From Tissierellia bacterium (lineage in GTDB: Bacteria; Bacillota; Clostridia; Tissierellales; Sedimentibacteraceae): DNA of 64,000 nucleotides. Within the stretch, counting starts at the first letter, position 1. The number at the start of each line of letters is the position of its first letter. The notes under the pieces were generated by a model. The model was not told the origin of the DNA. It saw only the letters and a program-made list of their open reading frames with translations, and ran no database searches. Of this stretch, positions 54,804 through 60,724 are shown piece by piece. The translations under genes and the position numbers were made by a program. Location of the stretch: assembly GCA_028709465.1 (NCBI GenBank), contig JAQVWY010000001.1:1-64000 (forward strand). The letters run 5' to 3'.

Positions 54804-54903
54804 TAATGTTTTATAATATATAATAATTTACGGACTATCTACGAAATAAATTACGGATAAAGGAAGTGTAGAAAATGTTAAGTAAAAATTGTGTATAATA
54901 TAA

Positions 54904-54971
54904 AATGGAGATAAGACATCAAGTACGAACCATCGTTCTTATCTCCATTACACCAAATTTACAAATGGTGT
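54904..54971 (+). other. tandem hairpins in lysis-operon leader
   Basis: AATGGAGATAAGA/TCTTATCTCCATT (13 bp) followed by ACACCA/TGGTGT. Confidence 0.6.
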
Positions 54972-55025
54972 ATGTTTATTATACATCTTCTTATCGTATA
55001 TTGCAATATATTTGGAGGTGTATTT

Positions 55026-55571
55026 ATGGATGAAAATTCAAAGATAAAAGAAGACTTAGAAATAGCTAAACAAGATATAAATAAAATGAAAATAGATATA
55101 GAAAATCTAAAAAGACAAAAAGCTGACTATATAGATATGACTGATGTTGAGAAGGAACTTATAAAATTATCTTCTAAACTTGAAGAAGTTATTAATGACA
55201 GAAAAGAAGATAAGAAACAAAGAGAAGAAGATAAAGAAGTGATTAATAAAATGATGAAAGAAGTAAATGATATAAAAGAAATAATTAATAATACTAAAAT
55301 TGACAATGCTGAGATTAAATCATATCAAACCTACACTATAGAAAAAGTTGATGATTTAAAATCGGAAATGAATGAAATTAAAAAATCTTTAAAGGAAATA
55401 ATAAATAAAACTTCTTTTAACTTATTAGATTTTAATAAAAATATAGTAATGAAAATATTTGGAAGAAGTGTCTTAATAATTGTAGGCATTATTATAATTA
55501 GTTTACTTGTTTGGGCAACAACAGGAAATTTTATTTTTCCTACACTTGTAGAAAAATATTTTGGAGGCTAA
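55026..55571 (+). CDS. coiled-coil protein with C-terminal TM (XhlA-like lysis/holin-associated)
   Basis: Charged coiled coil then VLIIVGIIIISLLVWATTG TM; SD GGAGG. Confidence 0.6.
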   Translation: MDENSKIKEDLEIAKQDINKMKIDIENLKRQKADYIDMTDVEKELIKLSSKLEEVINDRKEDKKQREEDKEVINKMMKEVNDIKEIINNTKIDNAEIKSYQTYTIEKVDDLKSEMNEIKKSLKEIINKTSFNLLDFNKNIVMKIFGRSVLIIVGIIIISLLVWATTGNFIFPTLVEKYFGG

Positions 55572-55573
55572 AA

Positions 55574-56023
55574 ATGTTATTTATTTTAAATACAATTGAA
55601 AATTATTTTATACTATGGTTTGTATTAATATGTTGTTGTATAAATCCTTTTAAAAACAAAATAAAATTTATATTGTTAATAATAATATCTACAGTATTTT
55701 CAATTGTAATTCAAGAAATAAAAATAATAGATAATATTGGATTAAATATGATTTTAAATATGGTTATTGGTACAATTTTGTATGTTTTTATTTTGAAAAT
55801 ATATTATGGTAAACAAATAAATATAGAACAATCTTTAAAATATATCATTATTTATTTTTGTTTTTTTACTATAGCTTTAGAATTATTATTATCAAAATTT
55901 TACCATCCATTTTTAAATGATTGTTTTATAAAAAATAATTTTTATAAATTATTTATATCTATACCTTTAAGGCTTTTGCAAGGATTTATTATTATGTTTA
56001 TAAAATTTAAAAAGGGGGTATAA
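55574..56023 (+). CDS. polytopic membrane protein, possible AgrC-like sensor domain lacking kinase
   Basis: 149 aa with several hydrophobic segments; SD GGAGG; directly precedes AgrD/AgrB-like pair. Confidence 0.5.
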   Translation: MLFILNTIENYFILWFVLICCCINPFKNKIKFILLIIISTVFSIVIQEIKIIDNIGLNMILNMVIGTILYVFILKIYYGKQINIEQSLKYIIIYFCFFTIALELLLSKFYHPFLNDCFIKNNFYKLFISIPLRLLQGFIIMFIKFKKGV

Positions 56024-56025
56024 AA

Positions 56026-56130
56026 ATGAGAATTTTTATTAATAAATTAAAGAATCAGATTAAAAATAACTTAAAAAATAGTTTAACAGCAAAATGGGTT
56101 TTTGTTTATCGACCTAGACAGCCTAAGTAA
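56026..56130 (+). CDS. AgrD-like propeptide (34 aa, MRIFINKLKNQIKNNLKNSLTAKWVFVYRPRQPK)
   Basis: Read by hand; amphipathic N-helix, C-terminal YxPxxPK as in clostridial AgrD; TAATG overlap with next gene; no Cys. Confidence 0.5.
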   Translation: MRIFINKLKNQIKNNLKNSLTAKWVFVYRPRQPK

Positions 56131-56558
56131 TGTTTATTAAAAGAATATCCTATTGGTTATCTCAGAAGCTTTATAAAAAATACCACAATCATAAAAGATA
56201 TTGGTATTATTATCGTACACAGTGTATAATTTTCCAATTTACAGAAATGTCTATTTTGTTAGGCATTTCTATTTTATTAAATATTGTATTAAAAACTTTA
56301 TTAATAGTGTTAGGATTTGGATTAGTACGAAGTTTTAAAAGTAATAATCATTTAGATAATTATAAGAAGTGTATTTTGCTTTCTACATCAAGCATTATAT
56401 TTTTAAGTTATATAAATACTATTCATAATGCGTTTTTTATTGGAATAATATGGGGATTAATTTTAAATTCAAAGTTAGGATATTTTATAGTTAAAGGATT
56501 TAATTGGATTTGGAGTAAAGGAAGTGAAAGTTATGAAATGGTTAAAAGATTTTTTTAG
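56130..56558 (+). CDS. AgrB-like propeptide-processing protease
   Basis: R67-x6-H74-x6-C81 (RSFKSNNHLDNYKKC) aligns without gaps to AgrB RSFxGGxHxxxxxxC. Confidence 0.65.
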   Translation: MFIKRISYWLSQKLYKKYHNHKRYWYYYRTQCIIFQFTEMSILLGISILLNIVLKTLLIVLGFGLVRSFKSNNHLDNYKKCILLSTSSIIFLSYINTIHNAFFIGIIWGLILNSKLGYFIVKGFNWIWSKGSESYEMVKRFF

Positions 56559-56778
56559 TGGAGATGAAAAAAGAGTTAGTAGTTTAATTATATTTGCAAT
56601 TATTTTAACAGGAGTTGCAATATATTCAGTTATTAAATTTACTGATATACCTAATAATTTACAAACTGTTTTAATTTGGTTATATGGATTTATTGCTGGA
56701 GGAAGTAGCATATCTCTATTGCCTAGTTTAAAAGGCGGTAATAATAGTAATGACTCTAGTAATGGAGGTTCGATTTAA
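56533..56778 (+). CDS. small holin-like membrane protein
   Basis: Amphipathic N-terminus and two hydrophobic segments, before amidase. Confidence 0.6.
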   Translation: MKWLKDFFSGDEKRVSSLIIFAIILTGVAIYSVIKFTDIPNNLQTVLIWLYGFIAGGSSISLLPSLKGGNNSNDSSNGGSI

Positions 56779-56780
56779 TT

Positions 56781-57491
56781 ATGTATACTATAAAACAAAA
56801 CATACCTTCTGATTTACCGAAAGAAGTATATAGGGCAGGTATAGGTAATTATGAAGGTGTTTGCGCACATGCAACAGCGGTTTATGAAGATAGTGATGAA
56901 GGTGAATCTAATTATTTTAAAAGAGATTGGAAGAAGATTTCTGCCTTTGTACATTATTTTGTAGATTATGATTCAATTACTCAAACTGCCGACATTAAAT
57001 ATAAAGCATGGGGAGCAGGTAAATATGGAAATCAAAGATATGTTCATGTGGAATTATGTCAAACCAAAGATAAAAATAAATTTTTAGAATCCTATAAAAG
57101 ATATACTTGGTTAATGGCTAAAATACTTTTTGATAAAAAATTAGATGTGATATATGGTAAAACATTTGTAACACATGAATGGGTGACAAAGAATTTAGGT
57201 GGAACGTCACATACTGACCCAGTAGATTATTTGCAGTTCCATGGAGTTAGTATTGAACAATTAATTAATGATGTAAAAAATGAATATAGTAATATGGGAA
57301 AACAAGTTGTTCAGGAGGTAAAACCAATGACAGAAAAATCATGGGAACAAATAACTGGAGAAAAAGCTATAGATGAATTATTTAAAAAAGGCAAATTAAA
57401 GAATCCTGATAATTGGAAAGCAAAAGATTTAGTTAATGAAAATACATCTCTTTGGCTTTTCTTTGAAATGATAAATAGATTGAACAAATAA
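56781..57491 (+). CDS. N-acetylmuramoyl-L-alanine amidase endolysin
   Basis: CAHATAVYEDS..., HYFVDYDSITQ, THEWVTKNLGGTSHTDPVDYL amidase-type motifs. Confidence 0.8.
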   Translation: MYTIKQNIPSDLPKEVYRAGIGNYEGVCAHATAVYEDSDEGESNYFKRDWKKISAFVHYFVDYDSITQTADIKYKAWGAGKYGNQRYVHVELCQTKDKNKFLESYKRYTWLMAKILFDKKLDVIYGKTFVTHEWVTKNLGGTSHTDPVDYLQFHGVSIEQLINDVKNEYSNMGKQVVQEVKPMTEKSWEQITGEKAIDELFKKGKLKNPDNWKAKDLVNENTSLWLFFEMINRLNK

Positions 57492-57770: not shown

Positions 57771-58178
57771 ATGGACTGGAGTATGATATATTTGTTTGGT
57801 TTTATTATCTTAGCATTAGTATTTGTTGTTGGAATAGTTTTTTTAATGAGGAAATATAACGTGAAACCAGAAGAAATTACAAACGGAATTGATATAACTA
57901 AAACAATAGCTTCAGTAATAAAAATAACTACAAAAGAACTTAATTTTGCTTCTGATGATACAATTAATCAAATAGCAGATTTGGTTATAGATTCACTAGA
58001 ATATGTAAAGACACTTGCTAATGTGAATACTAAGGAAGAGAAAGTTGAAGCAGGAATTAAGTATGTTGAAGATTTATGTAACTCTTTTGAAATAGAGATG
58101 GATGAAGATAGATATTTTGTAGTGAGTATTTTAGTACAATTAGGAGTAAATTTATTAGAATCTTTGAATGGGAAGTAA
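57771..58178 (+). CDS. holin-like protein (LL-H/phage_holin_6-like)
   Basis: N-terminal TM then cytosolic helices; SD GGAGGG. Confidence 0.6.
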   Translation: MDWSMIYLFGFIILALVFVVGIVFLMRKYNVKPEEITNGIDITKTIASVIKITTKELNFASDDTINQIADLVIDSLEYVKTLANVNTKEEKVEAGIKYVEDLCNSFEIEMDEDRYFVVSILVQLGVNLLESLNGK

Positions 58179-58934: not shown

Positions 58935-60641
58935 TTAACTCACTCCTTTATATTCTATTACTTCTTTAATAAATTTATCTATATCAAATTTATTTGTATC
59001 AATAAGGTAAGCTATCCACCAGTTTGTGAATACATATTGAATATTTGTGAATTTAGATACAATGACTACGCCGCCATTATTTGTAATATTTTTAAATAAC
59101 ACATCATCAATATTATATTTTTCTTTATCTTCTAAAGTTATTTCATTTTCATCATAAATTATAATCTTATCAATAATAGAATTTAAGCCTCTTTTAGTAA
59201 ATCCTTTTTCAAGCATTTCATTAATAAGTTCATCAATTTTATTAACATTTGTTTCTGCATTTTCAAAATCTTTATATTCATCTTTAAGTTCTTTTAATTG
59301 TTTTTCAATAATAGATATATTGTCTTTCAATTCTTTTGATTTTTTCTTATACAAAAATTCAGGTATTTCATCTTCTAAGTGTTCGTTATATACTTTTTCA
59401 TATTGACTTTTAAGTCTGTTTAGATTACTTTCTAACCTTTTTAGTGTGTTCTCATAATTTCTTTTTATTGAATTAATATCATTTAAATTCTTATAAAAAT
59501 AATCTCGATAATCTTTTGAATTTAATAAATTAGTAAAATGATTTTTTAAAAAATCTTTAATTTCTTTTTCTTGTATTCTATGTGAAGAACAACCTTTTTT
59601 AGGATTATCTTCTTTTTGCCTCCCTTCTCTATGATATTTTGAACACATAAAACAATCTGGTTTATCTTTTAATTTAATAAAAAAAAGTGGAGAATCGCAT
59701 TTGCCACAGTGTAATAGTCCTGCGAATACACAAGGAATTTTAGTTTTAGGAGCAAATGACTTTTTCTTTTCCATCATTTCTTTAACAGCATTAAATGTAT
59801 TTATGTCAATTATTGCTTCATGAGTATTGGGTATTTTTATCCATTCTTCTTTTGGCTTTCTTCTTGTATTTTTCTTTTTAAAACTAACTTTTTCCGATAT
59901 GCCAGAAATCATACATCCAGTATATGCTTCATTTATTAATATTCTACGCACATGCTGTCCAATCCATACTTCTGCAATAGGTTTATTGGGATTATTTCTA
60001 TATTGCGAAGGAGTAGAAATATTATCATTATTAAGTATTGTTGCAATAGCTTTATATCCATATCCTTGTAGATATAAGTTAAATATTCTTTTTACAATAG
60101 GTGTGGTTTCAGGGTCTACAATTAATTTATTACCCTCTTTAATATAACCATAATGTGAACGTATCAAAAGTACTCCTTCTTCCATTTTATGTCTTAAATT
60201 TGTTTTAATTTTTATTGAGTCATCTTCAGCCCTTTGTTCGTTAAACCAACTTTCTAAAGGGAAAAATCTTTTATCATATTTTCTTCCTTCAAATACTAAT
60301 TCTATACCATATTCTTCAAGTAATTCAACAAATTTTAATGCTTCTATTTGATTTCTGCCTAATCTAGAACTATCTTTGAGTATCATGGTATCTATAGATT
60401 TGTTTTTTATCATTTCTTTAATTTCATCAAATCTTGAAAAATCTGTACCAGACATATCATCATGCATAACAATATTTACAATATTAGTATAACCATTTTG
60501 ATTACAAAATTTAACAAGTAAATCTCTTTGAGTTTCAATTCTTTCATAATTTTCTGAATTATCATCTCGACTTTCTCTACAATAAATTAGAACTCTTTTC
60601 TCATAATTGGGTATAATTTTCTTTGCTACTGATATATTCAT
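58935..60641 (-). CDS. large serine recombinase (integrase)
   Basis: VLIYCRESRDDNSENYERIETQRDLL, LKDSSRLGRN, zinc ribbon HCGKCDSPL...C, coiled coil; SD AAGGAGG before ATG 60641. Confidence 0.9.
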   Translation of the reverse strand: MNISVAKKIIPNYEKRVLIYCRESRDDNSENYERIETQRDLLVKFCNQNGYTNIVNIVMHDDMSGTDFSRFDEIKEMIKNKSIDTMILKDSSRLGRNQIEALKFVELLEEYGIELVFEGRKYDKRFFPLESWFNEQRAEDDSIKIKTNLRHKMEEGVLLIRSHYGYIKEGNKLIVDPETTPIVKRIFNLYLQGYGYKAIATILNNDNISTPSQYRNNPNKPIAEVWIGQHVRRILINEAYTGCMISGISEKVSFKKKNTRRKPKEEWIKIPNTHEAIIDINTFNAVKEMMEKKKSFAPKTKIPCVFAGLLHCGKCDSPLFFIKLKDKPDCFMCSKYHREGRQKEDNPKKGCSSHRIQEKEIKDFLKNHFTNLLNSKDYRDYFYKNLNDINSIKRNYENTLKRLESNLNRLKSQYEKVYNEHLEDEIPEFLYKKKSKELKDNISIIEKQLKELKDEYKDFENAETNVNKIDELINEMLEKGFTKRGLNSIIDKIIIYDENEITLEDKEKYNIDDVLFKNITNNGGVVIVSKFTNIQYVFTNWWIAYLIDTNKFDIDKFIKEVIEYKGVS

Positions 60642-60677
60642 AAAATCCTCCTTAGTTGGTAATATACATTTATACAA

Positions 60678-60724
60678 AATGTGCATATAAAGTAATAATT
60701 ATTATATCACCTTATATGCACATT
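60678..60724. repeat. 13-bp perfect inverted repeat
   Basis: AATGTGCATATAA (60678-60690) / TTATATGCACATT (60712-60724). Confidence 0.75.

Follow-up and report, generated by a model that had tools for sequence, protein, structure and literature searches.

What are three small genes, resembling parts of an Agr peptide-signalling system, doing between the lysis genes of a phage? They lie on the forward strand at positions 55574–56558 of the window analyzed here, which comprises positions 1–64000 of a 167,468-base contig (C134, genome bin G000). A preliminary description, made from the DNA letters, had read them as a miniature Agr cluster: a 149-residue kinase-less sensor, a 34-residue AgrD-like peptide devoid of Cys, and a 142-residue AgrB-like protease. 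All three open reading frames (ORFs) are present as described, including the TAATG overlap that couples the peptide gene to agrB. The trio is, very probably, a real, reduced Agr-derived module. Our best explanation overall, advanced tentatively, is that a reduced Agr module in the lysis operon of an SPbeta-like phage is confined to peptide cleavage and acts on lysis timing.

Sequence comparison confirmed that the third gene (56130–56558, forward strand) encodes a genuine but shortened AgrB. The 142-residue protein matched the Pfam AgrB family PF04647 with an E-value of 1.9e-11 and 44.1 bits (curated cut-off 23), aligned to a profile of 18 AgrBs at 6e-8 using hhalign, and scored 59 bits against an N-terminal profile built from 44 AgrBs with the window protein left out. 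The AgrB-like identity proposed in the preliminary description is thus borne out, as is its reading of R67-x6-H74-x6-C81 as the catalytic region: across an alignment of 23 AgrBs, the His and Cys corresponding to H74 and C81 never vary, and conservation at R67 is at least 90%. In Staphylococcus aureus AgrB, three residues close to the active-site C84, namely R70, G75, and H77, are needed for proteolysis (PMC10196373). The equivalent of G75, the Gly two residues before the His, is N72 in the window protein; the altered GG pair is not a cosmetic change, since it removes a residue reportedly required for proteolysis.

Progressing further along the protein, resemblance to the family is lost after ~110 residues, and the PF04647 match stops at profile position 113 of 185. 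The C-terminal third, comprising the AP motif, the cytoplasmic loop that holds the K129–131 region, and the last helices, is missing. Mutants of S. aureus AgrB at K129–131 retain peptidase activity, and no autoinducing peptide (AIP) is made (PMC10196373). Two other accounts of the truncation were considered and rejected: i) an internal deletion that kept the AgrB tail, raised by a by-eye likeness to the tail of the AgrB at a chromosomal locus of the same bin (L001), was unsupported, as the tail scored 3.3 bits against the AgrB C-terminus, inside the shuffle range, and ii) a split AgrB, in which the 81-residue protein encoded downstream supplies the missing C-terminal half, received 0.5% probability and 1.5 bits from hhalign.

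Immediately upstream lies the 34-residue ORF (56026–56130, forward strand; MRIFINKLKNQIKNNLKNSLTAKWVFVYRPRQPK), which is preceded by an AAGGGGG Shine-Dalgarno site and overlaps the start of agrB. Its likeness to AgrD is confined to the last 14 residues, TAKWVFVYRPRQPK. Against a position matrix derived from 21 AgrD cores, this 14-mer ranked top among 358 small ORFs in the window and was matched or beaten by 148 of 200,000 shuffles and by 100 of 200,000 random peptides (p about 7e-4); true AgrDs mostly score far above it. The core score is moderate evidence, which gains weight from the position of the ORF immediately before agrB. Of the AgrD-like layout claimed earlier, the C-terminal core and the YxPxxPK tail (YRPRQPK, a P-x-x-P tail after the core) hold up, and the peptide matches no AgrD family model: the AgrD model TIGR04223 gave no match, the AgrD at L001 serving as a positive control at 1.1e-11, and a full-length AgrD profile built here gave a nonsignificant 2.4 bits. 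The amphipathic helix, also put forward as an AgrD trait, was unremarkable, with 673 of 5000 shuffles equally amphipathic. The peptide does lack Cys. At the ring position, seven residues before the first Pro, stands Lys23; among the AgrDs used here this position holds Cys in most and Ser in others, one of the two being present in nearly all. Aligning the core segment AKWVFVY with ASWTLIH and ASWTVIH from two related phages, G632 and G636, places K where the relatives have S. The assignment of the ORF as AgrD-like is thus supported by its position and its C-terminal core, and by no AgrD family model.

The first gene of the trio (55574–56023, forward strand) encodes a five-helix membrane protein that is probably a kinase-less AgrC-type sensor domain. 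This assignment draws on a profile that was seeded with a kinase-less membrane protein of another relative, G627, and filled with chromosomal AgrC N-terminal domains and kinase-less sensors, the 149-residue protein itself being excluded. Ranked against this profile, the 149-residue ORF came first among all C134 ORFs of at least 60 residues (E 0.005, 11.4 bits), with an alignment spanning nearly the full protein. None of 5000 shuffles reached its score, and the single one of 154 membrane controls to outscore it was the kinase-less sensor-like protein of L001, a member of the family. A C-terminal motif, SIPLRLLQ, aligns with SLPSRFLQ and AMPQRIVQ of sensor-like proteins. The earlier suggestion of an AgrC-type sensor remnant is modestly strengthened by these results, at scores that stay within 11–13 bits. 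An earlier, small AgrC N-terminal profile gave no signal; the signal depends on including sensors from the same AgrB subfamily to which the phylogenetic tree points. A profile-profile comparison with the sensors (hhalign) was not significant, and Pfam returned no significant match, the HATPase_c kinase domain not being present.

The setting of the trio was examined at the level of both the phage and the operon. C134 is of phage character along its whole length, corresponding to a large phage of ~167 kb, and at C134:129371–130342 encodes a homologue of the master repressor of SPbeta, MrpR. The MrpR profile matched positions 130082–130318 at 1.0e-22, and among 14 control genomes it matched in Bacillus subtilis only; by this marker gene, the phage is MrpR-positive and SPbeta-like. 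A genome-wide profile search (42.3 bits) found the lysis-operon AgrB to be the sole AgrB of C134, and no agr genes were seen adjoining its MrpR gene.

Judged from their spacing, the six genes at 55026–57491 form one coupled operon with the amidase last, the intergenic gaps being 2, 2, −1, −26, and 2 bases. Shine-Dalgarno sites are clear for most of them; agrB instead starts through the TAATG overlap. The first gene (55026–55571, forward strand; Shine-Dalgarno site TTGGAGG) encodes a 181-residue coiled-coil protein with one C-terminal transmembrane segment. After the trio, and overlapping the end of agrB, comes a forward-strand gene for an 81-residue holin candidate with two transmembrane segments (56533–56778), matching the membrane protein family phrog_1322 at 0.061 only. 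The last gene (56781–57491, forward strand) encodes the 236-residue endolysin, an N-acetylmuramoyl-L-alanine amidase (Pfam Amidase_2, 5.7e-12; phrog_2338 endolysin, 2.6e-45). Beyond the operon, a 135-residue protein with one N-terminal membrane helix (57771–58178, forward strand) is by layout a second holin candidate, with no convincing match among Pfam or phrog profiles. The amidase is the only firmly identified lysis gene; the XhlA and holin labels describe layout alone, and Pfam XhlA gave no profile match for the coiled-coil protein. The lysis-cassette setting described earlier therefore holds for placement in an operon with the amidase and not for the XhlA label. A second, independent contig from a 'Clostridia bacterium' metagenome assembly (JAQUBQ010000071.1, L051) shares 5,482 bases at 99.93% identity and carries the trio without differences. 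All trio frames are intact in both assemblies, which rules out assembly error as the source of the short AgrB and the small ORF.

Given the MrpR gene, we were curious to know whether related phages carry agr genes as well. A terminase search recovered 23 IMG/VR contigs at 47–97% identity. The four longest, at 119–204 kb (G632, G636, G630, and G627; loci L106, L107, L109, and L108, respectively), all encode both an AgrB above the family cut-off and MrpR. In the wider search for phage AgrBs, two probes were used that had been designed on general features of the AgrB family rather than taken from database entries. The AgrB gene lies within ~2 kb of MrpR in G632, G636, and G630, and the AgrBs of the MrpR-linked cassettes are 178–201 residues long. 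G632 and G636 share one gene order: MrpR, a kinase-less membrane protein (232 and 215 residues), AgrB, a Ser-type AgrD, and a LytTR-like protein (133 and 128 residues; E 3.5e-4 and 2.9e-3, slightly short of the curated cut-off). After AgrB in G630 come a 240-residue membrane protein and a 202-residue LytTR protein that exceeds the cut-off (9.1e-5), with no AgrD recognized beside AgrB. In G627, AgrB is ~6 kb from MrpR and accompanied by two kinase-less sensor-like proteins; here, too, no AgrD was recognized. Inspection of five other MrpR loci, drawn from 399 genomes of the phylum and 391 of the class, revealed no AgrB.

In the two relatives whose lysis regions are clearly readable, G636 and G637, a Phage_holin_4_1-type holin directly precedes an amidase-like gene, and no agr genes are present. 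Conservation of the 34-residue ORF in related phages, which the preliminary description had made a test of its proposal, is hence not seen in these lysis regions. The carriage of AgrB elsewhere by all four long relatives strengthens the Agr connection rather than removing it. The MrpR-side Agr cassettes with a stand-alone LytTR-like regulator are candidates for peptide communication at the site of lysogeny control, and a larger lead than the window trio itself. No report of Agr genes close to MrpR in such phages turned up in the open-access literature searched.

Where did the window trio originate? In the AgrB tree, the AgrBs of G632, G636, and G630 group with those of Brevibacillus phages in one clade (support 100/99), and the window AgrB, whose branch is long (2.22), joins a chromosomal ArgB-like subfamily (97/89). 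The simplest reading, provisional in view of that branch, is that the window phage gained its agr genes separately from its relatives. The ArgB-like AgrBs of clostridia are the nearest to the window protein at about 24–34% identity; some are followed by kinase-less sensor-like proteins, and unlike the window genes they are chromosomal and full length (about 207–217 residues). By eye, several of those collected here (L052–L068) sit beside quinolinate synthase lookalikes, and no AgrD was recognized beside those inspected; one (L064) carries an AgrD-like core, GCLTIYHQPKRPRK, at its C-terminus, apparently an AgrB-AgrD fusion. The genome bin has two chromosomal agr loci, whose AgrBs are 12–19% identical to the window protein. 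At one of them (L001, G000:C119), a 150-residue kinase-less sensor-like protein precedes AgrB and an AgrD with the core CIWGLYQPEEPK. No close relatives of the trio were found in IMG/VR, in phage and plasmid collections, or in 249 genomes of the order; 391 genomes of the class yielded distant AgrBs and no close trio relative, and among GTDB contigs the trio was carried only by the same phage (99.93%). Scans with the amidase, coiled-coil, and holin queries returned nothing, probably because exact 8-residue matches were required.

Reports of agr genes in phages date from 2014 (PMC3901668); our literature search found no demonstrated function for them. As the preliminary description had stated, the Clostridioides difficile phage phiCDHM1 carries them: homologues of agrD, agrB, and agrC (agr3) directly follow its lysis genes (PMC3901668). 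Both phages thus bear agr by their lysis genes, whereas those of the window lie inside the operon, with an AgrB of 142 residues and no kinase. Three Brevibacillus phages with agr-like genes and membrane proteins lacking a kinase domain were noted in the same work (PMC3901668). These phages, Davies (KC595518), Emery (KC595516), and Abouo (KC595517), resemble the window in three respects: the membrane protein or proteins are kinase-less, the AgrB is short, and the AgrD-like peptide has no Cys. They differ in that the cassette stands beside an integrase or recombinase, the AgrBs have 169–172 residues, and these fall in the separate clade (100/99). Their gene order, MrpR aside, is similar to that seen in the relatives of the window phage, and in Davies a protein after the AgrB cassette matches LytTR weakly (E 0.0074, below cut-off). 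The four MrpR-bearing relatives, G627 in part, share with the window phage the terminase and MrpR lineage and an AgrB accompanied by kinase-less membrane proteins; they differ in having agr beside MrpR (three), a longer AgrB, a Ser-containing AgrD (two), and a LytTR-like gene. What is new is how far the module has been reduced, that its AgrD-like core contains a Lys, that the genes stand within the lysis operon, and that Agr turns up repeatedly near MrpR.

In SPbeta phages, the arbitrium system (AimR-AimP-AimX) ties peptide communication to MrpR-type lysogeny control (PMC10516654). The likeness concerns the relatives and is one of analogy only; arbitrium is not an Agr system, and it depends on Opp import and a receptor inside the cell. 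A wider proposal, which strikes us as rather unlikely, is that in this SPbeta-like lineage a kinase-less Agr circuit beside MrpR (membrane sensor, AgrB, Ser-type AgrD, and stand-alone LytTR-like regulator) does the job of arbitrium by other chemistry, and that the window phage separately acquired a simplified set in its lysis operon, in which a linear or Lys-lactam peptide would time lysis.

Taken together, a model for the trio emerges. Loss of the K129–131 region from the enzyme and of Cys from the peptide both hit ring closure. With R, H, and C retained, and the nucleophile and ring-closing loop lost, this points to cutting without cyclization or to a membrane role needing neither; the loss of G75 shifts some weight from cutting to the membrane role. 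In the reading that we prefer, the trio would be made late, together with the endolysin, and the coupling of these genes to the endolysin makes late action, and with it an effect on lysis timing, the natural expectation. At most, the AgrB-like protein would cut the 34-residue peptide, at the V–Y bond if known AgrDs are a guide, closing no thiolactone; the product would be a linear peptide, or a lactam should Lys23 attack. The peptide or the membrane-bound trio could then act on the 149-residue partner and the neighboring holin candidates, setting the time of lysis. We put forward this mechanism, cleavage without cyclization directed at lysis timing, as possible, a shade more cautiously than the overall explanation. 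Several observations weigh against it. With N72 where G75 should be, the enzyme may not cut at all; taken singly, the AgrD and sensor assignments are weak; single-sequence AlphaFold models reached modest confidence (predicted local distance difference test scores of 77 and 64), and searching for similar folds with the AgrB-like model returned nothing. Selection on the operon is not measurable, since no homologous trio turned up in any other lysis operon. Neither the phage contig nor the trio was found to encode a kinase, and C134 has no LytTR-like ORF at E < 0.05, the only LytTR match of the bin being on a different contig (C68); no signalling output is therefore visible. The retention of the catalytic residues alongside the loss of ring-closure parts from both enzyme and peptide offers a natural experiment on AgrB without cyclization.

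Canonical thiolactone signalling is unlikely; likelier candidates are a peptide that is only cleaved and exaptation as membrane proteins that time lysis. The missing Cys or Ser, the missing cyclization loop, and the G75 change make a standard cyclic AIP improbable, the AgrD model gives no match, and no kinase or LytTR was found; the gene content does look like agrBD plus a sensor, and even so we give very little credence to full Agr quorum sensing in which a cyclic thiolactone AIP gates lysis. Exaptation would dispense with peptide processing, the former Agr proteins having become holin or antiholin partners that replace the relatives' holin at the same position. Immediately ahead of the amidase, two relatives carry a Phage_holin_4_1-type holin; the window phage has no recognized one and instead has the trio and the 81-residue two-helix protein there; the net charges of the 34-residue peptide (+9) and of the AgrB-like protein (+14), together with the loss of G75 and the cyclization loop, point the same way. 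Yet a purely structural use would not call for R67, H74, and C81 to be kept exactly, as they are, and the 81- and 135-residue proteins already are holin candidates; we consider exaptation somewhat unlikely. That the trio is a decaying passenger, a once-complete captured agr cassette under loss, would accord with the long AgrB branch (2.22), a highest identity of 28% in the tree analysis, the truncated AgrB, the Cys-less peptide, and the absence of an output gene. Frames intact in two assemblies, tight coupling, good Shine-Dalgarno sites, and catalytic residues kept while other conserved positions changed speak against decay, which makes it distinctly unlikely. More doubtful still is interference with the host, the decoy role that the preliminary description had entertained, in which a dominant-negative Agr set would bind host AgrB, AgrD, or AIP and blunt host Agr during infection. 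AgrB self-association is known (PMC10196373), and the bin does have its two chromosomal agr loci, including the L001 set; but late placement in a lysis operon is a poor moment to alter host behavior, the window AgrB is merely 12–19% identical to those of the bin, and the binning of phage with host is unproved.

Other features of the contig were noted in passing. A strongly folding element (window 54892–54985, z −5.3) separates the tail-fibre gene from the lysis operon. Its TGTATAATA/TATTATACA stem encloses two hairpins; the element occurs once in the contig and has no match in Rfam. A large serine recombinase is encoded at window 58935–60686. Outside the window, near the MrpR gene, a TPR-only protein (G000:C134:132036–132644; TPR_12, 2.1e-7), with no recognized DNA-binding domain, is possibly peptide-receptor-like. 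Next to it in the MrpR region is a PemK/MazF-like gene (G000:C134:132674–133318, 1.2e-18); by eye, such genes recur at L107, L108, and L118, near the MrpR region or MrpR-like genes.
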